Assembly: GCA_948144175.1 (NCBI GenBank)
Contig: CANXME010002091.1
Location: 310,001 to 374,000, forward strand
DNA: 64,000 nt
Reading direction: 5' to 3'
Source: Closterium sp. NIES-65
Taxonomy: Eukaryota > Streptophyta > Zygnematophyceae > Desmidiales > Closteriaceae
In this document: piece after piece, positions 2,379 through 48,900 of the stretch
Layout: each line of letters starts with the position of its first letter
Position numbering within the stretch: the stretch's first letter is position 1
Notes under the pieces: model-generated
The model's database searches: none
Seen by the model: only the letters and a program-made list of their open reading frames with translations
Told to the model about the DNA's origin: nothing
Made by a program: the position numbers and the translations under genes

Positions 2379-5300
2379 CCGTCACCCCCCGGATATACCC
2401 CCATGGGGGGCTATAATATAACATGTTTTTTTGAGGGGGTGGGCTTATAATATAGTAAATTTATAAGCGCCGGCGTTTATAATTTGTCAAAATTGAATTT
2501 TGTTTTTAAATATACCAAATCGAAGCATTCTCAAAGGCGGATTCACCTGGGTCGAGAACGTTCGAAACTGTGCATGCATTGCGCGTGAAACGGCCAACAA
2601 GGCGTGGCTTCACGCCTTCCACGCCTTGTTGGCCAGGCCAGGTTCATCAAACGTGAACCTGGCCCATGCCAGTGCACACGTACCTCGCATCAAAGCGGCC
2701 CAATCAGGGTTGCATGCGATCGTGGGCACGTCGTGGTTCAGCCACGGTGTGCCCATCAACAGCAAAATTCCCCGCCACCGAGGCAAGGAGCTGCCCAGCT
2801 CAGCTCCTCTGCGGGGAATCTTGACTGGGGCCACCCTTTTCCCGCAGAGGAGGCCGGGCCGCGAAAATGAAGGGGTCTCGGGCGAGGGCTTCATACAACC
2901 CTCATTCTCGACTTTTGCCTTCGGTTTCTTTGTTCGTTTGGCCTGCCGTGGCCATGGCGGGCCTTCCACGCACGCATTTCTTGTTCCGCCGCCATCCTGC
3001 TGCCAGAGAAAACACCCGCCGAGACACCTGTGACTACTCTCAATGGCAGTTGCGCCCTGCGCCCGTCCCTCCGTGTCAACCAGTAGCTTCTCCCGTTCCT
3101 CCCACTCCTCCAACTCCTCCTGCACCTCCCGCTCCCCCGGCGCCTCCGGTTCCTCCAGCTCCTCCGTCCCCTCCTGACCCGCCTGTGTTTGGTGCTCCAC
3201 GTCAGGGGGTCCTGCAGCTTCTCCTCCCTCCTGGCTACTCGGCGTTTGACGCGTACCTGTCCGAGCCCGACCGCGCCGGTGGCGCATCGTCTTCCTCCGC
3301 ACCGTCGCCACGCTGGGGAGCCCCGGCTGATTGCCCGTTGGACGAATCCGCGGCTGGTGCGGAGGATGACGTGGAGTTTTGGGCTGCCGACGGTCTTCCA
3401 GAGCACCTGCCTATTCCCACCTTCCCCCCCCCCAATAAGAAACGGCCCCACCCTTCTCGCGAGAATCGCGATGCCTGTCCTCCCTCCCCCAGGCACAAGC
3501 CTTCAAGTCACAAGCGGCACTCTTACACATCGCAGGAGAAACTGCAGTGGATTCTCAAGCTTGAGTCCGGGCACATGAGCGTGCGGCAGATGTCTCGCCA
3601 AACCGGCATCTCCCGAAGGTCACTCGCAGAATGGAAGACCCGGAAGGCTGACCTGGAGGGCGCGCATGCTGCTCGCAAGCGTCTTCATGGGCGCGGAAGG
3701 AGCTCGTGGTATCGCGACATGGAAGCTGAAGTCTACAGGAGGTTTCTTGCCCACCGTAAAAAATGTCTCGCGGTCTCGATCGCTCGCCTACAGAAGTGGT
3801 CGCATGAGGTGATGAAAGAATTGCACCCACAGGTAAAGTGGTCCGGCTCGCAGCGGTGGACTGAGCGGTTTCGCCGCCGTTGGAATCTGACAACCCGAGC
3901 GAAGACCAGGGTCGGCCAGAAGCTTGCTGCCAGTGAGTTTGTGGGAAATGGTTGCAGTTTAATGTGTACTGCTTTGTGTTGTTTGTCTCTTTATGTTTCA
4001 CGGTTGAATTTTAACGCGTCATTAATACTGTCTTCTCTCTTTCCCTCCCACCCGTACTCCCAAACTGCGAGACTGGCGTCAGGAATTTCTGGAAGTTCGT
4101 GCGTCACACCCGCCGCCAATACAAGATTGACCCGCAGTGGATAATAAACGCGGACCAGACACCACTGTGGCTCGAGATGCCTGCCGAACGCACAGTCGAG
4201 GAGGTGGGTCTGCGCTCTGTGCCTATCCGCAGCGGCGGCTATCAGAAGGAGCGAGTTACGGTGATGCTCGCCTGCACTGCCAGCGGTGAGAAGCTGAAGC
4301 CGTGGGTCTTCTTCAAACGGAAGACCCTGCCTAAAGGGGATTTCCCTTTAGGTGAGCATTAACACCCACTGCTGCATGTTTTTTTTTTTCAATGTCTACT
4401 GATGTTGTATGTGCGTTTGTGGCTGTGCAGATGTTACGGTGTCCGTCCATCCCAACGGTTGGATGGACGCGGACGGAGTCATTGAGTGGCTCGACGGGGC
4501 AGTGAAGCCGTTCGTCCACACCAAGTTTGGAGTGAGGCCCCGCAAAGCGATGCTCGTCTTGGATTCGTACCGCGGGCACCTGACTGCGGAGGTGAAGAAG
4601 AAGTTCGGGGAGCTGAACATCGTCCCTGCCGTTATCCCAGCTGGCTGCACCTCGGAGATTCAACCTCTGGACGTCGCGGTGAATCGCTCCTTCAAGGCAT
4701 CCGTTCGACAGCTCTACCAGGAGTGGTTCGAGAGCGAGGGGGTCGACACCTTGACAAAGAAAGGTGAGAGAGGCAGGCCATGCCTGTGCTGCTTTATCAG
4801 TTTGTAGCGGTGGCTGACTTTTGATTGTTTAAATTTTATGGCAGGCAACATCAAGAAGCCACCACCCGAGCTAACGCTCAAGTGGATATCAGCGGCTTGG
4901 AAGGCCGTGCCCAGGGACTTGATTCAACAGGCTTTCCTCACCTGTGGCATTAGTAACGCCCTGGATGGGTCCCAGGACAAGATCTGCCTGCAACACAGGC
5001 GCGACGAGCTTGAGGGCGACGAAATAGACATCGACGACGACATTGCAGCAGATGGCTTTTTCTGCAACAACGTAGAAGAACCAGAGTCGGACTCTGAGGC
5101 CGACCCGGATGATCCTACCGCAGCTGATGACTAGATTACGTAGATCTAGAAATTGCTGTAGCCTGTGAGACTCGTAGGTAGATTTAGAACTGTAATTAGA
5201 AAAAACTGTAGATAAACTGACTTTGTATTTAATTAGATGAAAATATAAGTTGTTAATGTGGTTAGTGAAGTTTGTAGAAAAAAAATATTTTAAAAAGTGG

Positions 5301-8160: not shown

Positions 8161-9345
8161 GCTGTACCACCCGAACTGCAGGCACTACTGAAACGGTTCC
8201 CGGGTATTTTTCCGGATGATTTACCGCAAGGGCTGCCACCTCAGCGGGCGCATGACCATAGGATCGAGTTAGAACCGGGGGCACAACCAACTGTACAGCG
8301 CCAGTTCCGACTGACACAGCCAGAGCTCGACGAGCTAAGGAAGCAGATAGATTACCTGTTAGAGAAGCAGTTTATTCGACCGAGCTCGTCACCGTTCGCC
8401 GCACCGATACTGTTCACACCAAAAAAAGACGGAGGATTTCGCATGTGCATCGACTACCGAGCGCTTAACAGGGTAACAGTCAAATCGCGGTACCCCATCC
8501 CCCGCGCCGACGAACTGATCGACCAGCTGCGAACAGCACGGGTATTTTCGAAAATCGGGCGGGGGTTACCACCTGATTCGGGTCGAACCATCGGACTGCG
8601 CCAAGACAGCATTTCGGACTAGGTACGGGTCATTCGAGTACACAGTGATGCCTTTCGGGCTGACCAACGCGCCTGCAACATTTCAGATGACCATGAACGA
8701 GGCGTTTAGGCCACTTTTAGATAACTGCGTCATAGTTTACCTCGGCGACATCCTCGTTTACAGTCGGGACCAGCAGCAGCACTTAGTCGATCTCGAAGCA
8801 GTTTTTAAAATTTTAGAGACACATCGGTTATTAACCAAGGGCTCCAAGTGCGAGTTTTTTCGGGACAGACTAGAGTTTTTAGGTCACGTCATTTCAGAGG
8901 CTGGGGTTGAGATTGACCCTACGAAGCTAGATACGGTAAAAGCGTGGCGTCTCCCGACGAACATCACGGAACTGCAGAGTTTTTTAGGGTTTGTTAATTA
9001 CGTTCGTCGGTTCGTCCCCGACATGGCACGCTTAACAGCCCCGCTCACTGATTTACTACGTAAGGGGGTCCCTTTTACGTGGGGGGAGAAAGAGCATGCT
9101 GCCTTCTCTACCCTAAAAAATGTTCTCTGTTCACCACCCGTCCTACGCATCGCTGACCCACACCGCCCCTTCGAAGTTGTTACCGACGCAAGCGACATCG
9201 CCATCGGAGCTGTACCGGCAACGGCCTCCAACCCATCGCTTACGAATCACGCAAGCTCCATCCACCTGAGCGAAATTACCCGATACACGATCGCGAAATG
9301 CTTGCGATCGTGCATGCATTCAAAGTGTGGCGCTGCTACTTGACC
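8161..9345 (+). pseudogene. gypsy-1 reverse transcriptase and start of RNase H, frameshifted
   Basis: Ty3-type RT. Frame 1 carries the connection and fingers ([31 protein letters not shown]) up to about 8556, where a few bases are missing. Frame 2 continues with MPFGLTNAPATFQ, the palm, thumb and RNase H start (VVTDASDIAIGA) until about 9208, where a second short deletion returns it to frame 1. The catalytic box reads YLGD at 8738-8749 instead of YLDD; loss of this Asp (codon 8744-8746) abolishes polymerisation in known RTs. These lesions show that the copy is inactive. Confidence 0.88.
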
Positions 9346-10995
9346 GGCGTAGACGTGACAGTACGGACAGACCATCGATCCCTACAGTACCTTCGCGCAC
9401 ACCCCCACCTCAACCCACAACAGATTCGGTGGCTCGACTTCCTCGAGTCGAATTTCCACTATACGGTCACATATAAAAAAGGAGCCTCGAATATCGCTGA
9501 CGCACTGACCCGCCCCACTGCCCAAATCCACGCGATACTACTCACCCAGACCAGCCCATTACTGACAGGACTATTTACCCACGGATATCAAACAGACCCG
9601 TTCTTCACAGGAGGAAATTCACAGCAATTCGCAGCAGCCAAGGGAGTCTATTACGTAAAAGCTGGAACCGACCGCATCTGGGTACCAGGATACACGCTAC
9701 TACGGGAACTACTGTTACAGGAAGCACACGACGGAGTTACCTCGGGACATTTCGGAGTAGAAAAAACACGGCAGCAGCTGCAGCGGTACTACTACAGGCC
9801 GGAAATGTTGACCGACGTGCAACGACACGTGGCATCGTGTCCCACTTGCCAGCTCATGAAGTCAAGCAGGAAGCGGCCGGCGGGACAATTGCAACCAATC
9901 CCACCCCCAGAGCGTGCTTGGCAGCAGGTGACGATGGACTTCGTCACGGGTTTACCGGCTGGGGCGAGTGGGAATGACGTGATCCTGGTCGTCGTCGATC
10001 GACTAACGAAAATGGCGCATTTCGCAGCATGCAGGAAATCAATCACAGCCGAGGAAACAGCCCGACTCTTCATCACCACCGTCGTTCGATTGCACGGGAT
10101 ACCAGCGTCGATCATCAGCGACAGGGACACGAAGTTTACCAGTAATTTCTGGCGGAACCTGTGGCAGCAGTTCGGCACGCGACTTCAATTCAGTTCATCC
10201 AACCACCCCGAAATCGACGGACAGACAGAACGGACAAACCAAACCATGGAGCAACTGATTCGAGCCACGTGCGACGATCCAAACACGTGGGAACAGCAAC
10301 TGCCTCTCATCGAGGTTGCGTACAACAACGCGCCATCCGCCACGACCCAACAGTCACCATTTTACTTGAACTACGGACAGGACCCAACAGTACCCATGAC
10401 ACCGAATCCCGACAATCCCGTTCCACGCGCAAAACAGTTCGCCGAGATTCTGCAAGCAGCACGAACCAGGGCAGCAGAAGCAATTAAAAAATCAAATATC
10501 ATCGCTAAACGCAACGCCGATCGCCACCGCAGACCCATCACTTATCAGCCCGACGACCTCGTGTTACTCGACACTCAAAATCTCCGCCTGCCCATCACTC
10601 CTAAACTCCGCCCTCGATACTGTGGGCCGTTTCGAATTAGCCACATGATCACACCCGTCACTGCGCACCTCCTCCTCCCTGCTGACTGGTACGTCAGCCC
10701 CTCGTTCCACGTCAGTCTACTTCGCCCTTACGTCCCATCCACCAGCCAACTCCCACGACATCGGCCATCCAGCATGACACGACCACCAACCGAACCAGTC
10801 ATCACCCCCGAAAAAATCTTGAGCCACAGAGTTCGCGACCCTCGAGGAGCCCGAAAAGTTGAGTTTCTGATCCGCTGGAAAGATCGTACACTCACCGAGG
10901 ACAACTGGGTTCCCCTGGACAAAGTTGAAAACCACCCTGTCGTCACCGACTACCTGCGCAGCCGAAACTTCAAAGACGTCCTCGCGCTTTCGTAA
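9209..10995 (+). CDS. gypsy-1 RNase H end, integrase and chromodomain
   Basis: This uninterrupted C-terminal part of pol runs to TAA 10993-10995. It begins with the RNase H tail (TDHRSLQYL, NIADALTRP). Integrase follows, with an HHCC zinc module (CPTCQLMK) and the catalytic core residues in MDFVTGLP, SDRDTKF and DGQTERTNQ (DD35E), then a GPY/F-like module (KLRPRYCGPFRI). The last about 60 residues (EKILSHRVRDPRGARK..FLIRWKDRTLTEDNWVPL) form a chromodomain. Chromodomains define chromoviruses and are thought to steer integration to marked chromatin. Confidence 0.92.
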
Positions 10996-30904: not shown

Positions 30905-33900
30905 ATGCCTTCCTCTGCGCCTGGATCGAGCGAATTCAGTGCCAATAGTTCGACGCCTATATCGAGTAGCTATTTTCACAGTGACTATATCGGGGATATC
31001 TTCTCGGATCCACGTGTCTGGTCGCTAGCCGCCGGTGCTGCCGCGTTTGCGCCTGTCGCGCTGGGGCTCCGCGTGCTATTGAATCCGTCCGGCGGAGCGC
31101 GAAAAGTCACTATCCCGGTTATATCGCCGGCTGCTCACCAGCAGCTGCTGACGTGGCAGCAGCAGCAGAGACTGCGGACGTGGCAGGCGCGGCGAAATGC
31201 GTACGCAATTGCGCTCCAGAAGCAAGAAGAGGAGGAGGAGCAGCAGCAGCAGCATGAAAGGGAGGAGCTATCACACAATGGCGGAGAGGGAGGAGCGGGA
31301 GGGGGAGTGGGAGCAGAGGTAGCGGCAGGAGCGACAGGAAGGACAGAGAGGGCAGCGGGAACAGAGGGAACAGAGGGAGCAGGGGGAGCAGAGGGGGACA
31401 ACACAGGCGAAGGGTGCGAGGCTCTTCAAGAGGGGAGCGATTTGTCTCAAGAGGGGAGCGAGGCAGCAGTGGATGCGGCAGTGGCGGCGGTGAACCAGGC
31501 GGGTCAACGGCTAGTTCTCATGATGCGCTCCGTCGACAAGCACCTCTCCTTCTGGCGCCGCCTCGCCCTCGCGTCGCCCTCGCAGCAGCTCTGGATCGTG
31601 CTCTTCCGACGCGGCCCGCTCGCCTTCCTCCACACGTCCCTCTCGCTCTCTCTCTCACTCGCTCTCTCCGCCGCCAACCGCTACCTCCTCCCTCTCCTCC
31701 CGTCTCCCACCCTTCCCCCTTCCTCCTCCTCCCGTCCTCCTCCCGCCTCTCCTTCCTCTAACCTCGTCCAGCCCAGCTCTCCCCAACCCTCCCACTCACT
31801 TTCTGCAAATCGCGTTCTGACACGTGTCAAGCAGCCAATCTCCCCTCTTATAACCCACCTCGTCTCTCTCTTAGCGCCTCTCTATCGCTTCCTCTCTTCC
31901 CTCTGGCTCTCCTTACAAACCGTCCCCCTCCTCCCCCTCTCCGCCCTTCCTCACCCCCCTAAACCCCTGCAAAATCTCATCTCAGATCTAAGCACATTCG
32001 GTTCCAAAACCTTAAACCTCGACTTGAAAACCCTCAACCTTAAACCCTTCTTCTTTGTCCATCTACACCGCCTGAGGTCGTTTTTGCCAAGCGTTGCGTC
32101 AGCAGAGGGGCTGCTGCTAGGCCTGGCAGCGCCGAGCCTGCAGGGCTTGGTTCGGGAGATGGTGGCAGAGAAAGTGGTGGTGCTGGGGGAGGTGCAACTG
32201 GCTCTGAGCGCCGCTGCTGGGCAGGTAAGGGAGAAGCGGGGTTGGGGAGTGGGGGAAGGGGGTGAGCAGGGGAGAAAAGAGGAAGGAGGCGTGGGGTGGG
32301 GATATGGTTCGCGTGGTTACAGTGTGGTGCAAAAATGGCTGGGAAGGGGTGATTCAATGAGGGGATAGAATGTGCTGTGGTTTGTGGGGAGCAGGTTGTT
32401 GTGGGCATGGGTAGCGCATGCCTCATCTCCCCACTCCGTCTCCTTCTCTCCTCACCTCCCCCCTGCCACAGGTCTACCTATCGTCAGCTGTAATCCCTGC
32501 CCCATCCTCCCTCGCCCTCTCTGCCCTCACCACCACCACCGCCACCAGCAGCAGCAGCATCATGAGCACATCTCCTCCCGACCCGCTCGCTCTGCTCTCC
32601 TCAATCCTACAAGCCTGCCACGTGGCAGTCACACAGGCCTCAGGGATCTACGGGGAGAAGCCCACCTCAGGAGCAGGGGGGCCAGAGGGGACGGTGGAGA
32701 GTGGTGGTGCTTGTAGTGAAGCAGTCAGTAACGAGGCAGGTGGGGAGTTGGGCGGTGCTGGGGTAGCAGAAGATGGCAGCGGGCTAGGTGTTTCAACACA
32801 AGGAGCAGTGCCCGCTGCTGCAGTGGTTTCCCCAGCCGTTGTGTGTGGGCAGGCAAAGCAGCTCAACGAGGATGTGAAGGGTCTGCAGAAACTGGTCTCT
32901 GCTGCGGTAGGTGCCGGCTGGGGTGGGTGGCTGCTGGGGTGGGTGACAGCTGGGGTGGGCGACAGCTGGGGTGGGTGACAGCTGGGGTAGGTGGCGGTTG
33001 GGTCAAGTGGCTGCTGGCATGGGTGGGCAGGCGAAGCAGCTTAATGAGGGTGTGAAGGTTGGGTGGGGTAGTTGGGCAGGAGAAACTGGTCTCTGGCGTG
33101 GTAGGTGACGGCTGGGGTGGGAATTGATGGGGGGAAACTGTTGGGGGGAAACTGATGGGATGAAACTGATGGGGTGAAACTGATGGGGTGAAACTGATGG
33201 GGTGAAACTGATGGGGTGGAAACTGATGGGGCGAAACTGATGGGGCGAATCTGATGGGGTGAAACTGATAGGGTAAAACTGATGGGGTGAAACTGATGGG
33301 GTGAAACTGATGGGGTGAAACTGATGCGGTGAAACTGATGGGGCGAAACTGATGGGGCGAATCTGATGGGGTGAAACTCATAGGGTAAAACTGATGGGGT
33401 GAAACTGATGGGGTAAAACTGATGGGATGAAACTGATGGGCTGAAACTGATGGGGTGAAACTGATGGGTGAAACTGATGGGGGAAACTGATGGGGTGAAA
33501 CTGATGGGTGGGGTGAAACTGATGGGGTGTGAAACTGATGGGGTGAAACTGATGGGGTGTGAAACTGATGGGGTGAAACTGATGGGGCGAAACTGATGGG
33601 GTGGGAACTGATGGGGTGAAACTGATGGGGTGTGAAACTGATGGGGTGAAACTGATGTCACCGAATATGCACGGTTGTGCATATAAGGTGCCAGAATCAT
33701 GGTGGTGTAGTGGAGGTGTAGCTATGTTGTGTTTGCAAATTCGAGGATAGGTAGGTGGGAGCTGGGAAATTGACGCGAAGTTGGTAGGAGAGCACCTTGG
33801 GTGAAAACCTTGCAACCAATGAGAACGAACCAACCCAGGCTCGAGCCGCACATTGAGAAATGCACGGTTCGAGCCAGGGTCAGGTAAGTTCACTCTCACA

Positions 33901-36900
33901 CACACCTCTGATGCTTTCTGGTTGTTATCCTTTCGTATAGTGGACTATTGTCACCTTACCAGAGCAGGCAGGTGGCACACCACTCAGGGAGGACCTTAGA
34001 GGTGAGAGTTCTGTCACTTTCATAACAACCAGAAAGGTGCGCGTACAAGCATGGATGTGTACGAGATGCGTTACGGCAGGAATTATGGTCGCCGTGAGGC
34101 GGATCGCTCGCGGCGCGAACGCTCACGTGAGCGCGGGCGCTCGCTGGAGAGGTCGCCGCGGCGGCCTGAGCGATCGCCGCGGAGGCCGACCTTTCGCGCG
34201 GATCAGGTCCCTCTCGCGCCAGATCGCCAGGAGGGAGGTTCCGCCCGAGAAGGAAGAGGCGGATCTGGATCCGTCACGACGGGGAGTGACCCGTGGCGGA
34301 CGGACGGGCGTCACGGAGCGGATGGCGGTCGTGGGTACCGCCAGGACACGGGAGCATACCGCTCGCCGGAGGAAGGCTATCGCCGTCGCGAAGAGAGAAG
34401 TCGCGGGCGAGGTCTGGAGGGGCTCTTCTCGGGTCGCCAAGGCGATCTTGATGTGGATGGAGAAGACGAGGCCGACTCGGCGAATCGAGTGCGGGAGACG
34501 AATCGTGAAGGCGAGACCAAGGGCGATGACGAACCCCAGGAGGAAGGCGCAGGCGAGCAGCGCGAGATGCCCGCTGGAGTTGATGACGACGATCCCGCGC
34601 AGGCGGGCGTGGCGGCGGAGCCGAGCACGGCGGAGGCGGAAGAAAAGGGCGGTATACCCGAGACCTGCCGCGCGACGGAGAGAAAGGTGACGGCGGGGGG
34701 CGTGGCAGTGGCGCGCGCTCTCCAGATCCCCGTCAGCAGCGTGACGAGGGACGTGGCGACGGCGCACGTTCGCCTGATCCGCGCCTGAATCGCGATGGAG
34801 GACGCGGCGGCGGTGCGCGCTCGCCAGAGCCTCGGCTGAATCGTGATGGGGGACGCGACGGAGGCACGCGCTCGCCAGATCCACGGATGTATCGGGAAGG
34901 GGGGCGTGGCGGCGGCGCGCGCTCTCCAGATCCGCGTCAGCAGCGTGACGAGGGACGTGGCGACGGCGCGCGTTCGCCTGATCCGCGCCTGAATCGGGAC
35001 GGAGGACGCGGCGGCGGTGCGCGCTCGCCAGAGCCTCGGCTGAATCGTGATGGGGGACGCGACGGAGGCACGCGCTCGCCGGATCCACGGATGTATCGGG
35101 AAGGGGGGCGTGGCGGCGGTACGCGCTCGCCAGATCGGCGGCAGAATCGTGACGGGGAACGCGGGTGGCGGCACGCGCTCGCCAGACCCGCGTCTCCCGC
35201 ACGAGGATGGGAGGCACGGAAGCGGCTACCGCTCGCCAGGACGGCAGCAGCTGCAGGAAGAAATGCGCAGAGGCGGCTACCGCTCGCCAGAGCTACTGCG
35301 ACACCAGGACAGTGGACGCGGGGGAAGCGTGCGCTCACCAGATCCGCGGAGGTATCACAACTGGAGAAGCGGGGGGGAGCTGCGCTCTCCAGGTCCTCGT
35401 TACCCTCGTGATGAGAGACGCGGAGGCGACTACCGCTCGCCTGATCTGCAACGGTATCATGGAGAGAGGTGGGGAAGCGAGACGCGCTCGCCCGACTGGC
35501 ACAGGCAACATGAAGAAAGCCGGGGAGGCGGATACGGCTCGCAGCTTCGGCAACAGAGCAGGGATGAGGGGCGCGGCGGAGGGTATCACTCACCCGATCG
35601 GTACTGGCAGCATGACGGAAGACGTACCAGTGAGGGAGGACGGGATCAACGCAACAGCAGAGAGGAAGGCAGCGGGCTGATGCACAGCCTAGAACGGGCT
35701 AGAGAGGCGAGGGAAGGGATACTTCGGGCGAGAGAGAGAGGAGCGTCAGGGAGATCAGCAGGAGGGCCGAGCGAGGCGTGGGGAGAAGGCAAGGGAAGCA
35801 CGGTGATGGCCACGAGAGTGGAAGTGCCAGCACGCTTCTCAGGAGATCAGCGCACGGGCCCCACGCTGAAGAACTTCCTGATGCAGGTGGGCAACGTGCG
35901 GTACAGATGCGAAAGGAGCGGCATGGACTCGGTGGACTTTTTCCTGAGTCTGCCAAACACATTGGAAGGGGAGGCGGAGACATTGTACAGGATGAAGATG
36001 GATGAGCTACTGGAAAGGGCAGGAAGGTACGGGGAAGACCCTACTGAAGCATTCCTGAGGCGGCTGAAACGGCAGTTTCCAGGTCACACCGCAGAGAAGG
36101 TCAGGGAATTCCAAGATTTCAGGAAGGGGCGGGGCAAGTCACTACTCACCTACTTTAACCGGCTGGTCAACCTGGCAGAGAATGTGACTTGCGCAGACAT
36201 GGCCCTGCTCGTGAGTAAATTCCTGGATGGGCTGGAGGGCACTTTGGGAAGCGGACTGCGAATGAAGGTGTATGAGATGGGGGCCGACACAACGCTTGAA
36301 GAGGTGTTTGAACTGGCAGAGAAGATGGAGCTGGCGCAGAGGAAATATGAAGCATACAGGCCCAGACAGGCGGAGCGCGGCAGGGGGCCTACATGGGCTG
36401 CGGCCATGATACCGGAGGAGAAGGACAGGGCAGCGGGAAGAAGGGAGATTAGGCCTGACACACGAACATGTCACAGATGCGGGTAGCCAGGACACTTGCG
36501 CCGAGACTGCAAGAACTGTGACTCCTGTGGCAAGCCAGGGCATCGGCGGCGGGAATGTCCAACGGCACCGAAGTGTGAAGTCTGTGGGAAAGGAGGGCAT
36601 GCAGCAAAGGAGTGTTATCAGCGAGAGGGGGCAGCGAAGAAGTCACCAGAAGAGCTGGAGAAGCAAATCAGCAGGCTGCAGGCCCAGCTGCAGGCAATGG
36701 GACCACGACGGGAAGCTGAGGCGGGGATGTACGCCAAGGAAGAGGAGGAAGAAGATGTGGAGCAGGATGAGGAAGCCGCGTTCATGGTCTGGGCGGGAAG
36801 AGGAGAGAATGAGATGGAGCATGAGGAGCAACCAGCATACATGGCATGGCGAGGAAGAGAGGAAATGGGGTTGCGCAGCGGAGGAAAGGATGCACGGAAG

Positions 36901-39900
36901 GAGCAGCGGAGAAAGGAGCGGGAGAGAGGACAGAAGCCGGAGGAGAAGGAGGAGAGATGCACAACAGCACGGCACCCCCAGGAGAGATTGGCTTGTTAGA
37001 CTTCCGTGCTGCTGATCCAAGGTGGTGCGCTGTCAGTGGAAGGGGAGAAGGCTAAGACGGCTATTATAGACACTGGAGCGCAGAGCGTGATACTCGGAAA
37101 GGGGATGGCCGAGAAGCTGGGACTGTGGGCACCTGACAGGCATGTGGTGAAGGGGATGCTAGTGATGACAGCAGAGGGGGGAGAGTCGAAGTGGATGCCT
37201 TGTACGAGGACTCCAATAGAACTGACGGTGCTGAAGGGGGAGAAGCATGAGACGCCGGTTAGAATCAGGTGCGGGATCTCAGAGTCAGAAGATTTTGACG
37301 TCCTGGTGGGCACAGAGATGATCTTTGCATTGGGCATGACCATCTGCTTCTGGAAGGAGACAGTGGAGTTCAGAACCAGGTGGTGGAGGAAGGGTGAGCC
37401 ACTGGGGCAGCTGCCGGTGCAGTTTGTCAGGGTCGAGCCAAAAAGGGCCTACAGGGCAGATCTGAAGGAGGTGACAGCGAAGCAGGGGGCACAGAAGGCC
37501 GCAACAGGCAAGGGACAAGGTGGGGACCCCAGGATGCGTTTCATGGACGAACCTAGCCAGCAGACCAATTGGGAGCAACCCATTCGGCTGGTGGAGCTGT
37601 TCGGAGGAATCGGGGCATGACTGGCAGCAGTGGTGCGAAATGGAATTGCAGTGAAGCAGTGGATTTACGTGGAGAAAGCACCAGAAGTGAGGAAAATAGC
37701 AGAGCATCAGGCGTGGGAGTTGCACAGAGAGTTCTCGGAGCTGCTGCAGGGAGAGGTGATCAAGGCAGCAATGAGCAGAGGAATGAACGATGTAAGGGCC
37801 ATTACGGAAGCTGAGGTAGCAAGCTGGGGGCACGTGGACCTGTTGGTGGCAGGGTGGGAATGCCAAGGGGTATCATGGGCAGGGAAGGGCAAGGGTGAGC
37901 AAGACCTACGAACACAGCTGATGGAGGATCTGTTCAGAGTCATGGAGTGGATGCAGGCGAGGCAAGGCAGAGTGGCTTACCTGCTGGAGCACTTGGATAT
38001 GGAGAGAGACGTGAGAGAACCGATAAGACTAGTGAGGGAGAGAGTGACCAGACAGGTGGGGAAAGGAGTGAGCAGTGATGCGGTGCGGATGGGAGCATAT
38101 GCGCACAGGCTCAGGATGTACTGGCAGAATGTGGTACCAGTAGAAGACCTGCAGAAGGAAATAGAAGGGGTGCAGAGAGCTGGGGGACGGAAGCTGAGCG
38201 ACATATTGGAGCTAGGAAGAACGCCAGCACCAGTGACCAAGAAGGGCTACAGCAGGCATTATCCCTGCAACCAGGTGGGACAGGAAAGGCAGGCACTGCC
38301 TACCCTGGTGTCATATGAGGGGGCAGCAGGCTATCAGATGGATGGGAAGCAACCCGGCCCAGGATTGGTGCATGACCACAGGAAGGGACAGTGGGAAGAG
38401 CCCACGGCCTTGGAGAGGGAGCTGGCCATGGGGTACAAGGAGAACGCGACAGCAGCCTCAGGCGTGAGCGAGAAGGAACGGAGACGGGCATTGGGGAATG
38501 CCATGGATGGGTACATGATGAGGTGGTTGGTGCAGCGGATGTGGAAGGAGACAGTGCTGCACTGGGGACTGAAGGAGGGAGAAAACACAGTGGCAACGGT
38601 GAGGCACGGGGTGTGGGCCTGCCTGCAAAAACAGGAGCCAGAGTGGAAGATAGGTGAGAGCATGAGCGAAGAAGGGAAGGCAGCGATGCGGGCACTGCTG
38701 GCAAGGCATCGGAAGGGCTTCGCCTTCACACTGCTGGAGTTGGGGAAGTGCAAGATCAAATAGATGGCGCTGAAATTGAGTAGTGACGAGCCGGTGTTCC
38801 ACCGCAGGAGGAAGATGCCATCAGGGGATGAAGTGATCTGCAGGGAGAAGATAAAGGAGTTACTAGAAGCCGGACTGATTAGGAGGTCAGAGTCAGAATA
38901 CGCTACCCCAATCGTGGTGGCAGCCAGGAAGGACTTGACAGGCGAGGTGTTGAGTAGGAGGATGTGCGGGGACTACAGGGATCTCAACAAAATTACAGTG
39001 CCAGATAGATACCCAATGCCGATAGCGGAAGAGCTCTTTGACAAGCTGGCTGACGGGGTGTTCTTCACGACGCTGGACCTGCGACAGGGGTTCAATCAAA
39101 TCAAGATCAGAGAGGAGGATGTGAAGAAAACGGCTTTCCACGGATCGGATGGGCTATACGAGTGGCTTTACATGCCCTTCGGTCTGAGGAACGCCTCGGC
39201 GGTGTTTCAGAGAGTCATGGACGCGGTGCTGCGGGGAATAGAACACGCGGCGTGCTATATTGATGATGTCGTGATCTTCAGCTTGACCGAACAGCAGCAC
39301 CTGGAGGACGTGGAGAGGACCTTGACCGCCATAGAAGGGGCAGGGCTCACCTGCCATCCCAACAAGTGCAGGTGGGGGGAGCGGACAGTGCAGTATCTTG
39401 GGTATGAGGTCACAGGGGGGCAGATTGGTATCCAGCAAGCGAAGGTGCAAGTGCCGGACAGGCTGAGGGAACCAAGAGACAAGTCAGGGCTGCGTGCGGT
39501 CTTGGGCTTCCTCAGCTACTACAGGCGCTTCGTGCCGAACTTCAGCAAACGAGCGACAGCACTAAATGGGATGTTGCGGGAGGACAAGGCATGGGAGTGG
39601 GGAGAGGAGCAGAGACAGGCACTGCAAGACCTCATGACAGCCGTGAAGACAGCGACAGTGCTGCGGCTGCCAGCAGCGGACCAGCCCTTCATCCTCTACA
39701 CAGACTGTAGCAGAGAAGGGATGGGGGCAATATTATGCCAGGAGGTGGAGGGAGTGGAGAAGGTGGTGGCCTACGCCAGCAGGAGCTGCAACCCGGCGGA
39801 AGCACAATATAGCTCATACATTGGGGAAGGGCTGGCGGCAGTGTGGGCGGTCGGGCATTTCCGGATATACCTGCAGGGCCGAGAATTCACCTTAGTCACT

Positions 39901-42900
39901 GACCATCAGCCACTCACCTGGCTGATGACTACACCAGGGCTGACAGGCAGGAACGCGTGGTGGGCGGTGAAGCTGCAGGAGTATGATTTCAAGATCAGGC
40001 ATAGGCCGGGGAAGACGCTGCAGCACGTTGACGGCCTCTCCCGCAATCCACCGCCGCTGGAAATGAAACAGGCCACCCTGGGGACGGAAGAGACAGAGCA
40101 AGAGCCGGCACGGACCTTGATCTTACTGGCAAGAGAGGTGGAGCACACGGGGGCGAAGGGGAGTAAGGGGCCAACCGACATCTGGTTGGATGCAAAGGCA
40201 ATGCAATGGGTGAAGGGAGAAACCGAGGAGGATGAAACGGTGCCTGAGAGAGTAAGGGCACGAGGGCACCACTACAGGTGGTATCAGCAGCAGCTGCAGA
40301 TTAAGACGGAGGATGGGTGGAAGCTGGTGCCAGCGCCCGAGGACCGTGAAGCAGTGATCAAGGAAGTGCACACCAAGCTGGGGCACTTCGGGCACGAGAG
40401 GACCGTGCACCTGCTGAAGACGGGCTGGTGGTGGGAAGGGATGCGCAGGCAAGTAAAAGAGTGGGTGGAGGGGTGCGAGGCGTGTCAGAGGAGCAAAGCA
40501 AATCTGACGCAGGCCAAAGCAGAGCTGCACTCACTGCCAATCTGCGGACTAGGGTTCCGTTGGTCCCTGGACCTCGCGGGAGAGCTGCCACTGAGTCGAA
40601 GCGGGAATCAGTACATCGTGTTCATGGTGGAGCATGTGAGCAAGTGGCTGGAGGTGCGAGCGATCCCTAGCAAGAGCGCGAGGCACATTGCAGCAGCCTT
40701 CAAAGCGCAAGTAGTGTGCCGATTTGGAGCATGCGGGGAGGTACTCACAGACCAGGGAACAGAGTTCCAGGGGGAGTTCAAGAAGCTGCTGGCGGAGACT
40801 GGCATCACGCACCGAAAGACCTCCCGCTATCACCCGCAGAGCGATGGGCTGACTGAGAGAGCCGTGCAAACCTTCAAGCGGGGGCTGCGGGCCTACGGGG
40901 AGCAGAGGAAGAGGGATTGGGATGAGGAGTTGGACTGGATCGCGGCTGGGTACAGGTTCGGGAAGCAGGCAGCGCTGAAGGATCACTCCCCGTATAGCCT
41001 GCTGTTCGGACGAGAGCCGATTCTGCCAGTGGGAGCACCACGAGTATTGACAGATACAGTGACAGCGGGCACGATCAGGAACTGGGTAGCCCTGTCCGAG
41101 GTGAGGGCGCGCTACATGCGCTACATGATGCCAGCCGCGTTGGAGAATCTGCACACCGCGCAGCTCAGGGACGCAAGAAGATACGAACAGAGGCAACACA
41201 AAGGGGAGGGAAGAATGGCAAAGGATGTCTGCGAAGGACAGGAAGTCTATCTGAAGAGGGCTAAGCAGGACACCCTTGACGTGGGGTTGGTCAAGGAGGT
41301 ACGCCCCTCAGGGGTGCTGGTCTTGGAAAACGACACCGGAGCGCAGCTGAGGGAACATCAGACGAACACTGCAGTGATCAGAGGGACCGGGCCTCAGCGT
41401 ACTGGTCCTGTGGCCCGCGCTCAAGCCGCTCGAGCACGGGCACAGGAGGGGGCAGAGAGTGGCTGAGGCAACCGAAGGAGCTAAGGGACGAAGAGCATGA
41501 GGACTAAGGCAGATGATGAGGGTAGAGCTGTATCTCCGACAGCTGTCACCGAATATGCACGGTTGTGCATATAAGGTGCCAGAATCATGGTGGTGTAGTG
41601 GAGGTGTAGCTATGTTGTGTTTGCAAATTCGAGGATAGGTAGGTGGGAGCTGGGAAATTGGCGCGAAGTTGGTAGGAGAGCACCTTGGGTGAAAACCTTG
41701 CAACCAATGAGAACGAACCAACCCAGGCTCGAGCCGCACATTGAGAAATGCACGGTTCGAGCCAGGGTCAGGTAAGTTCACTCTCACACACACCTCTGAT
41801 GCTTTCTGGTTGTTATCCTTTCGTATAGTGGACTATTGTCACCTTACCAGAGCAGGCAGGTGGCACACCACTCAGGGAGGACCTTAGAGGTGAGAGTTCT
41901 GTCACTTTCAAGAGAGTGGCTGAGGCAACCGAAGGAGCTAAGGGACGAAGAGCATGAGGACTAAGGCAGATGATGAGGGTAGAGCTGTATCTCCGACACT
42001 GATGGGGCGAAACTGATGGGGTGAAACTGATGGGGTGAAACTGATGGGTGAAACTGATGGGGTGAAACTGATGGGGTGAAACTGATGGGTGAAACTGATG
42101 GGGTGAAACTGATGGGGTGAAACTGATGGGGCGAAACTGATGGTGCGAAACTGATGGGGTGAAACTGATGGGTGAAACTGATGGGATGAAACTGATGGGG
42201 TGAAACTGATGGGTGAAACTGATGGGGTGAAACTGATGGGGTGAAACTGATGGGGTGGAAACTGATGGGGTGGAACTGATGGGGTGGAAACTGCTGGGGT
42301 GGAAACTGATGGGGTGGAAACTGATGGGGTGGAAACTGATGGGGTGGGAACTGATGGGGTGGAACTGATGGGGTGGTTGCTCGGGTGGGTGCTTCTGGAG
42401 TGGGTGACGCCCAAGATTTCTTGCATTGCCGCCTCTCCTCCATCAGACCCCCTCTCACTCACCCCTCTCTCCTGCCCCACTGTTCCCTGTCCAGGTGGCG
42501 CGCTGTCATAGGCCGAGGCACGCGGCGCGGCACTGGCTGGAGTACCTGGCAGGCGGGCTGTGTGGCGTGGCGGTGGGCACGTGGGTGGTGCGACACAGCC
42601 GACTCAATGGCAGTGACGACTTGGATAGGTGGGGAGACGGGATGTAGATGGGGCATGCTAGACGGTAATGGTTGAGGCGAGGCGCGGCACTGGCTGGAGT
42701 TCCTGGCAGGGGGGCTGTGTGGCGTGGCGGTGGGCAGCTGGGTGGTGTGGCACAGCCGACTGAACGGCAGTGATGACCTCGACAGGTGCGCTGCTGCTGA
42801 TGATGATAATGGGGACATGGATGGAGGGAGAAAGCATCTAGATGGGCGGATGGGTAATGGTTGATGGGTGAGGCAGTACGATCCGCAGTTAAAGGCAGCT

Positions 42901-45900
42901 GAAAGATGCATGGCAGGGTGCAGATTTGTACTCACCCGCACTGCTGCTGCTTTGGCTGCCTGGGCTCTCACTTGCAAGTGTAACCCACCCATCTTGCCTT
43001 GCACATTCGTGTGTCCCCTTTTGAGTTGACTCAAAAGCACTCACCCGCACTGCTGCTGCTTTGGCTGGCTGGGCTCTCGCTTGCAATGGTTTAGGAAGTG
43101 AGGTAGGAGTGAGTTGCAACTCACCCATCTTGCCTTGCACATTCGTGTGTCCCTTGAGCAGGTGGGCTGCAGATGGGTGGAGAGCGGTGACAGGGTTTGT
43201 CACTGACCACATATGGCAACCGGTAAGCATCGTCAGCTTTTCTCGTCTACCAGTTGTAGCGATTATCTCCCCTCACTACACGCCTCACGATTTTTGAGAA
43301 CGCTAAACAAAAACGCTCACAGTGTTCCCACCTCTTCCTCCTCACCACACGCCTCACTCCTTCCCTGCTGGCGCCTGCTCCTATTCTCAACCCCAACAGC
43401 TGTCAGCGATCAGTGCAGAGCTCTTCCACATGTTCGGTGACCAGCAGAGGGGCATGTTGTGGCACCTCGTCTCCCTCCCTCACTCCACCTTTGCTGCCGT
43501 CCTCACTCTGCCCCTTCACCCCTTATCCCATCACTCACCCGTCCAGCTGTCAGCAATCAGTGCAGAGCTCTTTCACACGTTCAGCGACCAGCAGAGGGGC
43601 AACGTGTCCATGCATGACGTGCAAGCCTCCACTGACTCGCTGCGGAGGTGAGAGTCATGCCAGTCAGCTGTGAGGGTCGGTCAAGTCAAACACGGTCAAC
43701 AGAGGCAAGCAGAGGGGCAACGTGTCCATGCATGACGTGCAGGCTTCCACTAATTCCCTAAGGAGGTGAGAGTCAAGCCAGTCAACGAGAGTCAAGCAAG
43801 TGAAACACGGTCAACAGTGACAAGCACCAGGGCGGCGTGACCTTGCATGATGAGCGAATTTAATATATTCCCAGTCAGTGAAACGCAGTCAGCAAGGGGA
43901 AGCGCAGCACGAGGTGAAACAGAGTGAAACCTTTTGCTGCACTGCTTGCCACAGTGTTGTGTTGCCCATCCCTGTCGCCCTTTGATTCAACTCAAAACAT
44001 TTCCCACCCCTGGCGCACCCTGACTCATGTTTCAAAGGGCTGCAGTAGTAGAGAGGACGCTTAAGCAAAGGAACAAACAGTAAAAACTGGTGAAAAACAC
44101 GCAGATCTGAAAAACCCTTAGCTTCCGAAAAGCCTCCTTGCGTAAACTAGTTTGGGTGGATGGGCGAACCCAATCACGCCTTCATCAGTACAGCACAATT
44201 CGGAACTCAGAACCAGAGAGTCTGGTAGCAGCTAAAGTAGCTAGACTACCCTCGAGATCTACGTACAAGAAACCCAACTACCCAGAATCCAACTAGGAAA
44301 GGGGTTCGCCAACTAGGCAATGAAACAAATTCAGGGTGCCAAGTCAGCCTCCAGGAACTTCTTCGACAGCATTGGCGAGTGACTTTGGTAACCGCGCCCT
44401 TACGAGTAACCGCTGAAGGTTACGTGCACACTTCCATGCAATTATAATTCTCCCCACATAAAAACCGCGAGACATGAGACGACTTTTGAGGTGCCTCAAA
44501 AGCACCCCCAGCCTGAGACGTCCGGTCAAAGGTGTGAACAGTGTCTTCAAGACTAGGGGGCCGCGTTCGGGGGGAGTTTCAAGTTTGTGTGCGTGGCGGG
44601 CAGCTGTCTGCTCCAGAAGGAGAGGTCGTGGTCGAAAGAAAATGCTCCTGAAGATGGGTAGAAGGAAATCAGAGGGGTAAGCCCGACTTGGTAGCCGCTG
44701 GTAGAAAGCGCGCTTGGAGGCGAGAAAGGTATCTGCAGCAGTCGAGCGGAGAAGATAACGCTTCAGTTCAGCTGCAATGAAACCAGTCTTGCAGTGTCGG
44801 GGATGAAAAGACGAAAAAGGGAGATAAAGGTATTGGTTAAGCGGTTTCTGGAATGTCTTCAGATCCAAGATACCCTGCCCAGCAAATCTCGGTCCCTTGA
44901 ATAAGACCAAATCAAGAAAATCAGCTGAGCTGTCCGAAATCTGCCACGTCAGTTTGATATTCGGGTCAAGCTCGTTGAAGGTCTGCAGATACTTCTCCAA
45001 CTCACTCCTCGATCCAGGCCAAAGAATCAGGCCATCGTCGATGTATCTGACATGGCGTAGAGGTTGCGTTCCGGACCATCTCTCCCTCAAAAGTTCATCC
45101 AGGCGGCTCATGAAAAGTACCGCAAAGCAGACCGCTGCAGGAGTTCCCATAGCGGTCCCTTGCGTCTGGTGGTACAGGTGGCCGTCGAACTCCACGTAAG
45201 AATTCATCATGACTGGTTGAAGACTGTGGTGACTCCCTCGTTGCAAAATGCTGCTCACCGCATCGAGTCCGCGCCTAAGAGGAATACTGGGGTAGAGCGA
45301 CGAGGCGTCGTACGTGGCTAGAAGAATCTCCTTAGGAAATGAAGTTTCCTCCAGCGACAAGAGTAGCGAAAGAGAGTCTCGGAGGTAAGTATGCTGTCGT
45401 AGCACCCACGGTCTAAGTTCCGCATCTAACCATCTACTGACATTCGAAGTAACCCATGAATGCGAAGCGGCGATCGGACGCCCAGCGAGCTGCTTCTTAT
45501 GTAGCTTAGGAAGGATGAAAAAGGCTGCGGGTTTCCAACCTCCAGGTGGTTCGTCTAGAAAATACTTCCAAAGGCTGTCGGGATAAGCAGGGCCCCATGC
45601 GTGACGCAGTTCGTGCAGTCCCTGAACGACTAAGGCAGTAAGATCGTGGAGAACCGGGGTGTAAGTCGATCTGTTGCCTAGATGGTCCATACAGAGACGA
45701 ACATAAGTTCCCGATCCATCACAGTGATCCCGATGTTCTTGTCGGCCGGTTTAATAACCACACTACGATCTGCGGCGATGGAACGCAAGGCCTGTCGAAC
45801 ACGTAACGAGATGTTTCGGTGTCGAGGAGGCCTAGATGCCTTCAGCAGAAAAGATAAGTCCGAGGACGAATCTCTGAAGACCTGCTCTGGAATCTCACTC

Positions 45901-48900
45901 CGATCAGGTGCCCAGCTCGGATTTCCACTCCAAAACGATAGTCCTTAGCCGGGTCTGCATCCTTGAAGAAGAAACGTAGCGAAATCTGTCGGCAAAGCTG
46001 ATCTAACTCGACCGTAGAAAGGGAAACAGCGGGCTTTGGGATAAACTTCAGACCAAGCCCCAGCGCTTTCTTCTCGTCCAAGGACAAGACTTTGGCGCTG
46101 AGGTTATGAACTCCGCGGTTGCAAACTTGTAACGCCGCCTGCCGAAACGTTAGCTTCGCGAACCAACGGAGCGCCAAATCGTGGCTGGTCACTTCTTGTG
46201 CGGCCCTTTTACGGGGCCGCCTCCGCTGTTTTTTGGTCCCTTGGCCTTCGATGTGGTAGGGCCTTTCGCCTGCTGCTCTTTGTCGGCGCTGGAATTCTGC
46301 TTCTTTGGAGTCTTACCACCCCGCTTCTTCTTCGGCTTAGGCTTCCCAGGTGCACCGTCCTGCCTCCCAGGTTGAGCCGTCTGCTTCTTGTCAGCGGATG
46401 TGGCCTGCGAAGAGTTCTGCTCTCCGATGTGAAGATTCTTCTGCAGCTTCTTAGATAGACTGGCCTCAAGCTTCTGCGTAATCTCCCGCCGAGCTTGTCT
46501 TCAATCTTCTTGGCATGCTTAGCCAGAATCTCCTCAATCGCAGGCTCCATTTCCATCTCCTGCACCTCCTCAGCTGCAGCAGCGTTCTTCAAATCCTCAG
46601 CCGCCAGCTTATGCTGTCGATCGATCTCTCGGATGGTCATCTCATCCTTGGCCGCCGCGATGTCAGATTGAGCCTTCTCGATGCACCGCCCCTTCAGTCG
46701 CCGATAGCGTTCTTTGGCGGCATCAGAAACCACCAGATCGGGGTCGGAGCTGAGGCTTTTGATGTACTCTTCCATCTTCGTCGCCAGAGTCGTGACATGC
46801 GTGCCGACAGCTGCCTGAATTTCTTCAACCTCCAGTTCTTTAGAAGCGATAAACTCCGCGTGCAGCCGTTTTTTATTCTCCAAGTGGATCTTCGCGACAG
46901 CTGCTGCAGATTTCTCTTTGACGGAGCCGTTCTTCGTCTGGAATTCGACCGCCTTAGTCCTGATGCTGTGCAGAATAGAACCTTGGCGATCCAACTTCTT
47001 CATCTTTTTGAGCTTGCTTTTCGCTTTAAGAAGGTCCTTGAAGCCGTCCTGGAAATCTTTCACCGCTGCAGCAGTCCAACGGGTGAGAATGTGAGGAATG
47101 GGAGGATTGTGAACGGGCTGATCCGGCATCTCCATGCTTGGACGACTCCCACAAGGTCCGGGGGGAGGAATCTCAGGTTGCTTGCTTCGTGAAACAGGTT
47201 TGTAGGTCAACTGCAAAGGCGGAATACGACTGCCGTCCCGCGAGTGCTTCGATGCACTCCTGGTAGCAGGACGCGACAATCCTCCGCGCCCACGAGCTTT
47301 CTTCGACGAGCCGCGTCCTTCAGTACCGGCCTCTTCGTTTTCTGGAAACCATTCGGTATCCCAAGGGTCACCCTGACTCATGTTTCGAAGGGCTGCAGTA
47401 GTAGAGAGGACGCTTAAGCAAAGGAACAAACAGTAAAAACTGGTGAAAAACACGCAGATCTGAAAAACCCTTAGCTTCCGAAAAGCCTCCTTGCGTAAAC
47501 TAGTTTGGGTGGATGGGCGAACCCAATCACGCCTTCATCAGTACAGCACAATTCGGAACTCAGAACCAGAGAGTCTGGTAGCAGCTAAAGTAGCTAGACT
47601 ACCCTCGAGATCTACGTACAAGAAACCCAACTACCCAGAATCCAACTAGGAAAGGGGTTCGCCAACTAGGCAATGAAACAAATTCAGGGTGCCAAGTCAG
47701 CCTCCGGGAACTTCTTCGACAGCATTGGCGAGTGACTTTGGTAACCGCGCCCTTACGAGTAACCGCTGAAGGTTACGTGCACACTTCCATGCAATTATAA
47801 TTCTCCCCACATAAAAACCGCGAGACATGAGACGACTTTTGAGGCGCCTCAAAAGTTTTGCTGCACTGCTTGCCACAGTGTTGCCCATCCCTGTCGCCCT
47901 TTGATTCAACTCATAACATTTCCCACCCCTGGCGCCCTCGTTTCCCACCCCTGTCCCCATGGCCCGTCAGAATGCTGCTGACCTTTGTTGAGAAAACCCA
48001 GCCACTGGCACTCGAAAACACCAGCACCACAAGCACCACCACCAGCACCAGCACCAGCAGCGGCAGCAACAGCGGCAGCGGCAGTACAGGAGCAGCTGAT
48101 GCACATGTGGGAGCAGGAGTGCCATCAGAGTCGGATCTGATGGCATTGGTGATGCGCGAGTATGAGAAGGATATGGCTAACCCCCTCACTCACCTCCTCA
48201 CGGGGAGGCTGGCTGAAGCACTGTTGATTCAGGTGGGTGCCTTGTGGTTTGCTTGCACGATCCCACTGGTGCAGCATACTCATCAGTGGGTGCAGGAGTG
48301 CCTTCGGGTGCAAAGGAGTGCCATCAGAGTCGGATCTGATGGCATTGGCGATGCGGGAGTATGAGAAGGATATGGCTAACCCCCTCACTCACCTCCTCAT
48401 GGGGAGGCTGGCTGAGGCGCTGCTCATCCAGGTGAATATTCACTGAACACTCGGATGAACTTTCAGGTGAATTGCTTGCTTGCACCCATCTTCATCTTCA
48501 CCTGCACGTGGCACCCCACATCCACGCATGCATGAGCTCATTTGCCACTCTCCAGCACTCATGCCTGCCCTGCGTGACGTGTCCAGGTTCACTGAATATG
48601 TCTGCTCTTCATCCTCCTCTCCTCTGTCCCCTCGCCTCTGCCCCCTCTCCCAGGTTCAACGAATGAAACTGCACATTGAAACGTAAGCCCCCATTCTCCT
48701 GCCATCACCACTCCATGCCATGCGACTGTAAATTGGCCTTTGCTCCTTTTTCCATTACCCTTTTTCCATTACCCTTTTTCCATTACCCTTTTTCCATTAC
48801 CCTTTTTCCATTACCCTTTTTTCCCCTGCTCCGTCCTAAGCTGCTTGTACCTTCTGTCTGTCTGTCCTCCCCTAGCCGGATCCGTACCCCTCACATGTGT

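Follow-up and report, generated by a model that had tools for sequence, protein, structure and literature searches.

What does a DNA methyltransferase do inside the polyprotein of a retrotransposon, and how does an element whose terminal repeats are split come to insert itself? Both questions are raised by an insertion on the plus strand of a 64,000-nucleotide stretch of the Closterium sp. NIES-65 genome (contig CANXME010002091.1, positions 310,001 to 374,000; hereafter the window, to whose positions all coordinates refer). An initial annotation had recognized in it a captured C5-DNA methyltransferase between the protease and the reverse transcriptase (RT) of a Ty3/Gypsy pol, and both Pfam and profile matches uphold this. 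We put at about 72% the probability of an explanation in which this is a Gypsy element with a Dnmt3-type domain, whose complementary DNA (cDNA) would be self-primed and methylated, and whose circular forms would be opened inside the long terminal repeat (LTR).

The methyltransferase motifs named by the annotation were all found, in order and in frame +1: FGGIG (motif I, 37600-37614), ECQGVS (catalytic motif IV, 37858-37875, with the Cys at 37861-37863), LLEHLD (37981-37998), HRLRMYWQN (38104-38130) and GNAMD (38494-38508). This is also the frame of the protease open reading frame (ORF; 37000-37617) and of the ORF for RT, RNase H and integrase (38764-41463). The motif set is complete, but the window copy of the domain (37570-38562) is broken and not an open pol frame: TGA 37618 parts motif I from the remaining motifs, and TAG 38761 parts the domain from RT. 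The window ORF scores 22.3 bits on the C5-methyltransferase profile PF00145 (cut-off 22), a significant match with E 9.9e-5, and a relative, L005, does so with 45.9 bits, above the cut-off. There are 28 homologous proteins at E ≤ 1e-3 (best 5.2e-192), and a profile match to DNMT3A reaches E 8.7e-15. Because of the PF00145 match, the homologs and the DNMT3A match, a chance origin of the motifs is excluded. Among the methyltransferase classes compared here, the domain is nearest to DNMT3 by sequence profile and fold. Motifs I, IV, VI, VIII and X stand in linear order with a catalytic Cys in the window and its homologs, save for P0043, which lacks the Cys; the circularly rearranged order of DRM-type enzymes was found in neither.

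Two residue changes, Glu for Pro before the catalytic Cys and EHL for ENV in motif VI, had been put forward as possible marks of a distinct subfamily, and neither is supported as one. EN and EH vary within Closterium. The residue before the Cys is readable in 26 of 47 Closterium proteins, with Glu in 25 (one of them without the Cys) and Asp in one, and Glu is also the commonest residue in a second group of homologs, described below (116 of 130 readable; Glu 65, Pro 43, Ser 5, Ala 3). One genomic copy, L030, has Lys. Replacement of the Pro is a common variation inside the family and gives no reason, as regards fold, to place the domain outside it.

A search of the 874-Mb genome returned 108 scored matches from 1,644 first-look candidates. 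No internal stop interrupts 92 of the 108, and 20 of those 92 lie in open frames of more than 2,400 residues (hand count). The 108 are not independent insertions, as some rows very probably represent one insertion on two contigs (C1935 and the window). A one-off chimera is rejected, because many genomic copies carry the domain in open frames; in L028, a single frame of 2,463 codons spans the CCHC knuckles, protease, methyltransferase, RT, RNase H and integrase. The methyltransferase is a regular domain of a Gag–protease–methyltransferase–RT–RNase H–integrase polyprotein.

The domain is also under strong purifying selection. We compared nonsynonymous and synonymous rates (dN/dS, or omega) by Nei–Gojobori counts in 15 of 21 copies, omitting L014, L015 and L030 (frame-shifted or shortened RT), L017 and L027 (loci with A..B only, in the repeat notation below) and L025 (a tandem partner), and report the 58 of 105 pairs with dS of 0.2-1.5 in both parts. 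Omega was 0.058-0.111 for the methyltransferase (median 0.079) and 0.044-0.078 for the part from RT to integrase (median 0.052). Pairs with higher dS, between the window and L030 to L033, gave 0.08 to 0.13; very close pairs gave higher values (window against L014, 0.42; against L018, 0.26), as expected of decaying copies. Motif I was present in 21 of 21 copies and motif IV likewise, one with a different residue before the Cys.

The pol of the element is that of Ty3/Gypsy, with protease, RT, RNase H and rve integrase in this order and Ty3 RT as the best PDB match of its RT (E 8.2e-61). The two complete LTRs expected at the ends of such an insertion are absent: its left end carries a repeat A only, its right end A-B. 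The left copy of a 4-bp target-site duplication, CTGA (33652-33655, within a 14-bp satellite), is followed by A1 (33656-34022, 367 bp, beginning TGTCACC), the internal region with gag-pol (34023-41453), B1 (41454-41541, 88 bp, ending CCGACA), the dinucleotide GC, A2 (41544-41910, one mismatch in 367 to A1), B2 (41911-41998, identical to B1 in 88 of 88) and the right CTGA (41999-42002). The insertion, bounded by TG...CA ends and the duplications, therefore reads A-internal-B-GC-A-B, an order of split direct repeats that is DIRS-like, and a complete B-GC-A occurs once, internally (twice in a tandem locus). At the B-GC-A junction lies the palindrome GACA-GC-TGTC (41538-41547), the proposed integrase site, and immediately 5' of B1 a polypurine-rich tract, GGGCACAGGAGGGGGC (41438-41453), which is identical in 14 of 14 rows.

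This layout recurs. Twelve loci, the window included, read A-internal-B-GC-A-B, and 11 of them have an exact 4-bp duplication, all eleven different in sequence. The three A...B-only loci (L015, with an internal deletion, L017 and L027) all have exact 4-bp duplications as well. In the tandem L024/L025 (C1923, 2154967-2172877), the order is (A-internal-B-GC)x2-A-B, with a unit of 7,911 bp and a single outer GGAG duplication. The ends of L030-L033, four of the 20 fetched loci, are not resolved. Ten further loci included seven that fit layout and duplication, one (C1935) being very probably the window insertion again. The palindrome, GACAGCTGTC, is present in 14 of 20 copies and in 8 of the 10 further loci. 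Three distant relatives, L001, L004 and L005, carry it too, about 420 to 800 bases past the pol frame compared with 75 in the window (L002 and L003 end too early for this check); chance would give 0.17 such palindromes in the whole window and none in L005.

What varies is the joint between A2 and B2 (41910/41911 in the window). Over 13 loci it is exact, has lost bases, or has gained T, TT, TG, TC, TAT or TAAAT, and L026, L028 and L029, which show no synonymous difference in the methyltransferase, have three different joints. By contrast, B-GC-A reads GC wherever found (sought as GACANNTGTC), B1 and the A2 start lie 2 bases apart in every locus with both aligned (alignment of A and B), and the purine tract is constant. 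Because the joint varies while these are constant, the A/B joint appears to be remade at each insertion, as joined ends of linear cDNA would be, and what reverse transcription treats as the LTR would be B-GC-A.

We found a candidate primer within the element itself. Fifteen nucleotides in A1 (arm 1, 33914-33928) are the perfect complement of 15 at the boundary between A and the internal region (arm 2, 34022-34036, the primer-binding position), where 0.01 pairs of at least 12 would be expected in the stretch. Over 18 sequences (16 distinct), 99.2% of 240 cells are paired and 6 of the 15 pairs have changed on both sides; versions slid along the arms pair at 42-58%. In a test with 500 shuffles, none reached the observed value on four of five measures; the fifth, the number of further pair types, was not above the shuffles (232 of 500 as high). 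Two copies were omitted from the pairing count: L032, with a different 12-bp pair in the same place, and L033, whose arms are unpaired (10 mismatches in 12). A 13-nt pair also occurs in L005, where the second arm lies about 361 bases past the start of A (0.28 pairs of at least 12 expected in the stretch), and no convincing pair was seen in L001 or L004. In Tf1 of fission yeast, the RNA primes its own reverse transcription, its 5' end pairing with a site just past the LTR; Tf1 has an ordinary LTR layout and, to our knowledge, no methyltransferase. The covarying pairing fits self-priming as in Tf1, with arm 1 presumably near the RNA 5' end.

We therefore propose the following route. The RNA would begin inside A and act as its own primer for reverse transcription, annealing to the site where A meets the internal region, and plus-strand synthesis would begin at the purine tract 5' of B, making B-GC-A the LTR. 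The ends of the linear cDNA, the end of A and the start of B, would be joined into a two-LTR circle with a small, copy-specific A/B joint. The DDE integrase, bypassing the linear ends, would open the circle at GACA-GC-TGTC within the LTR, drop the GC and insert the resulting TG...CA ends with a 4-bp duplication, giving the permuted A-internal-B-GC-A-B; a one-LTR circle would give A-internal-B. The methyltransferase, synthesized within the same polyprotein, would methylate the double-stranded cDNA before insertion, which might mimic host DNA or shield the cDNA from nucleases or repair. That a green-algal Ty3/Gypsy lineage integrates from circular cDNA, its DDE integrase cutting the LTR palindrome of one- or two-LTR circles and an old Dnmt3-type methyltransferase perhaps acting on the circular intermediate, is a claim to which we give slightly better than even odds.

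Several observations weigh against this explanation. The PF00145 scores are marginal in the window (22.3 bits) and below the cut-off in L028 (19.5 bits), and the residue before the catalytic Cys is mostly Glu, not Pro. No duplication was found at L016, whose right end is broken, at C1954, which has no match, or at C2038 and C430, which have no ends within the fetched stretches. No palindrome could be placed in L030, L031 or L033; it was sought as GACANNTGTC, so altered versions would escape. The two arms might stay complementary through copying of one from the other, which would itself imply self-priming. Similar insertions would also arise from linear concatemers cut at the LTR palindrome, and both circles and cDNA are read back from the insertions. 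Transitions between near-identical copies (five pairs, with L032/L033 supplying over half of the changes) number 16.5 per 1,000 sites at CG, 10.9 at CHG and 7.5 at CHH, that is, 2.2 times the CHH rate at CG and 1.4 times at CHG. CpG stands at 0.78 of expected in the element and at 0.779 in the remainder of the window, with no relative depletion in the element. Finally, KnitGypsy-Dnmt3 of Klebsormidium was inactive in yeast where human DNMT3A worked (PMC5890265). The authors call this result inconclusive, DNMT3B having failed too, and de novo CG methylation in yeast was obtained with two copies of SymbioDIRS (PMC5890265).

The excess of CG and CHG transitions agrees with methylation of inserted copies and does not specify the enzyme. 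It bears on a rival proposed for DNMT-bearing retrotransposons by de Mendoza et al. 2018 (PMC5890265), namely that the targets of the enzyme are the genome of the host or the copies already inserted, whereby the element shares the silencing of its host, as self-restraint, or host methylation is overloaded. Methylated DNA would leave just such a surplus of CG and CHG transitions in comparisons of near-identical copies. Host methylation alone would raise them too, however, the CpG content of the element is not below that of its surroundings, and there is no evidence of free protein reaching the nucleus; we regard methylation of the genome or of inserted copies as a real possibility, on balance unlikely. 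The suggestion of the initial annotation that an element methylating itself or its host could soften silencing or mark targets is a guess. Because of its position in the polyprotein and the selection on it, the methyltransferase is tied to the replication cycle. Action on the cDNA before insertion would be the simplest reading, held with less confidence than the rest of the route, and it is also among the proposals for the 2018 elements (PMC5890265).

If insertion used linear concatemers, or template switching during reverse transcription, the integrase would still cut B-GC-A, and the tandem L024/L025 is readable either way. Joints with inserted T, TT, TG, TC, TAT or TAAAT and with deletions resemble end joining, and they vary between near-identical copies. 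This variability argues only against template switching, since linear end-to-end joining would give the same. We consider these routes improbable in comparison with circles, without dismissing them.

How old is the association? Homologs named Closterium make up 25 of the 28 in a first search and 21 of the 30 in a second. A second group, found with P0049 as the query (E ≤ 0.01), comprises 176 proteins, of which the best 120 are listed; the named members among the matches listed are from Haematococcus lacustris (P0134, P0135, P0150 and P0176), with one labelled Chromochloris (P0174) and one under the name of a bacterial metagenome-assembled genome (MAG; P0177). In three members the methyltransferase is 37-40% identical to that of the window, and RT is homologous too. 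The domain order was compared over 177 proteins: all 28 Closterium proteins that have both domains, counting the window, place the methyltransferase ahead of RT, and all 117 others place it behind RT. A PHD finger lies 3' of the integrase in all four second-group proteins scanned, accompanied in P0057 by a chromodomain. The C-terminal segment past the PHD finger, with DPF-G and (S/T/A)PP motifs, is conserved in P0049, P0064, P0068, P0079 and P0085; it looks amino-methyltransferase-like by eye. Its best PDB profile match (E 0.024) is not convincing, which leaves a second methyltransferase at that place without support.

The two domain positions would be accounted for if Closterium elements had captured their methyltransferase independently of the chlorophyte ones, and the groups do stand apart in the methyltransferase tree, with Shimodaira–Hasegawa-like (SH-aLRT) support of 97 for the chlorophyte and 74 for the Closterium side (rooted on one very long outgroup, DNMT3A). 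Against this, the RTs of methyltransferase-bearing elements form one clade relative to Ty3 and the other Gypsy element of the window (99 SH-aLRT, two outgroups only), and L005, from a contig in a cyanobacterial MAG, mixes the two styles, with the methyltransferase before RT and the chlorophyte PHD finger at the end; in the methyltransferase tree L005 groups with P0028 (98), and both with Closterium (98). Independent capture thus seems to us unlikely, and a single old association of methyltransferase and Gypsy lineage is likely from these trees. L002-L004 have RT, integrase and PHD finger, L001 integrase and PHD finger, and none of the four gave a methyltransferase match. Because L002 and L004, the two tested, nest inside the chlorophyte-type RT group, their placement suggests that the methyltransferase was lost.

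L001-L005 come from contigs of bacterial and archaeal MAGs (Halorubrum, Halanaerobiaceae, Mollicutes and Synechococcales) that are probably mis-binned. The ends of the L005 contig share 127 identical bases, like an assembly circle. Its Gag–protease–methyltransferase frame ends in TAG CAA TCA (3489-3497) ahead of the RT–integrase–PHD frame. The leaky stop context of tobamoviruses is UAG CAR YYA, and by this analogy the RT of L005 may be made by stop read-through. Scans of viral contigs with P0003, P0056 and A3 yielded nothing useful.

Two further alternatives fare far worse. The idea of a passenger, in which the methyltransferase would be a functionless gene fragment picked up by the polyprotein, would suit the broken window copy, the faster divergence of the domain within Closterium (69% identity compared with 88% for RT, window against P0031) and its absence from L001-L004, but it is rejected on omega, which lies near the RT–integrase value over the 58 pairs, and is further opposed by the retention of motifs I and IV in every copy and of the domain in two lineages about 60% different in RT. 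A DIRS/PAT-like origin of the layout, by a tyrosine recombinase acting on circles, is scarcely credible: PAT-like and Ngaro elements do have split direct repeats in the A-coding-B-A-B order (PMC6681497) and the repeats of KnitGypsy were called DIRS-like (PMC5890265), yet the Pfam matches show an rve integrase and no tyrosine recombinase (in a scan without the window leader, 34023-35043), and the 4-bp duplications are of a kind that DIRS1 insertions do not make (PMC3266345).

In the window copy, four in-frame stops (TAG 36484, TAG 36997, TGA 37618 and TAG 38761) interrupt the coding region. A gag-like open frame in the ORF list, without a Pfam match, occupies 35044-36483, ending at the first stop, and the frame shifts 5' of 35044, judged by eye from that list; 51-bp tandem repeats at 34644-35204, in the gag leader, encode an RSPDPR-type low-complexity stretch. 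The CCHC zinc knuckles of gag follow at 36487-36996 (PF00098, E 1.7e-8), up to the second stop, and then the aspartyl protease at 37000-37617 (PF13975, E 1.5e-5, below its cut-off), whose C-terminal end holds motif I. RT, RNase H, the H2C2 segment and the rve integrase, preceded by the stop at 38761, match PF00078 (1e-28), PF17917 (3.9e-31), PF17921 (2.7e-18) and PF00665 (5.3e-11). We rejected the idea that the stops are programmed read-through sites, as their recurrence among the 28 loci L006-L033 (L007 being the window copy) is too sparse: of the four, two have a counterpart in L006 alone and one in L011 and L012 alone, and the last is shared with no other locus. Between L006 and the window copy 20 of 4,140 bases differ, and the L006 locus on C1935 has identical satellite flanks and an identical A/B joint; it is very probably a duplicate of the window insertion. 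For this reason we dropped an argument for spread in trans that set the number of stops against the A1/A2 difference (0.32 stops expected, P 0.0003; with higher bounds of 1.04, P 0.02, and 1.8, P 0.10). The insertion target was the 14-bp satellite GTGAAACTGATGGG, which flanks the element on both sides (33059-33651 and 41998-42400). Elsewhere in the window, a second Gypsy pol in shifted frames (8284-10515) has an RT closest to Ty3 and no methyltransferase match, and a direct repeat pair of 98% identity (44007-44306 and 47360-47659) flanks a minus-strand RT frame (44344-45750; PF00078, E 6.6e-7) that is Penelope-like by eye.

A retrotransposon with a Dnmt3 domain and A-coding-B-A-B repeats has been known since 2018 (PMC5890265), and the charophyte precedent cited by the initial annotation is sound. 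KnitGypsy-Dnmt3 of Klebsormidium nitens shares with the window element a Gypsy-type pol, an intron-less Dnmt3-related domain that lies in the Pol frame and is under purifying selection (Ka/Ks below 0.2), and the A-coding-B-A-B repeats (PMC5890265); its host belongs to another charophyte class, and the two are compared here by description only. Domain order, target duplication, primer pairing and an analysis of the junction are absent from the text consulted on it. The K. nitens element was not among the matches listed in our protein homolog searches (for P0049, the best 120 of 176). SymbioDIRS-Dnmt3 of dinoflagellates likewise has Dnmt3 in a retrotransposon Pol and A-coding-B-A-B repeats, but a tyrosine recombinase where the window element has a DDE integrase (PMC5890265). 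PAT, Ngaro and VIPER elements share the split direct repeats (A1-B1-A2-B2; PMC6681497) and differ in their tyrosine recombinase and, for DIRS1-type elements, in insertion without target duplication (PMC3266345). The 2018 paper cites two older reports that link DNMTs with RT (PMC5890265). Other algal Gypsy polyproteins have a homologous methyltransferase and RT, but with the domain between RNase H and integrase and with a PHD finger. REM1 of Chlamydomonas is a green-algal Ty3/Gypsy element with PHD and chromodomain, for which we know of no reported methyltransferase. Its integrase is described as truncated and in a reverse frame (PMC2774666), and an opinion paper mentions Dam- or Dcm-type methylases in green-algal Ty3/Gypsy and DIRS elements, lumping both (PMC6338049). 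In literature searches that covered few subscription journals, we found no literature on a methyltransferase in a Closterium retrotransposon or a cytosine methyltransferase in a Haematococcus one, and only the 2018 paper under KnitGypsy and related names. As far as searched, novelty lies in the Closterium and named chlorophyte members, in the two domain positions, in target duplications combined with a DDE integrase, in a joint that varies between copies, and in a primer site whose arms covary.

Taken together, these data make of a curiosity known in one charophyte what appears to be a widespread and long-standing association of a retrotransposon lineage with a strongly selected de novo methyltransferase. 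If the proposed route is true, integration from circles cut within the LTR would set this DDE integrase apart from the retroviral route through linear ends, circular permutation would explain DIRS-like split repeats without a tyrosine recombinase, and the puzzling repeats of KnitGypsy-Dnmt3 would be explained in the same way.

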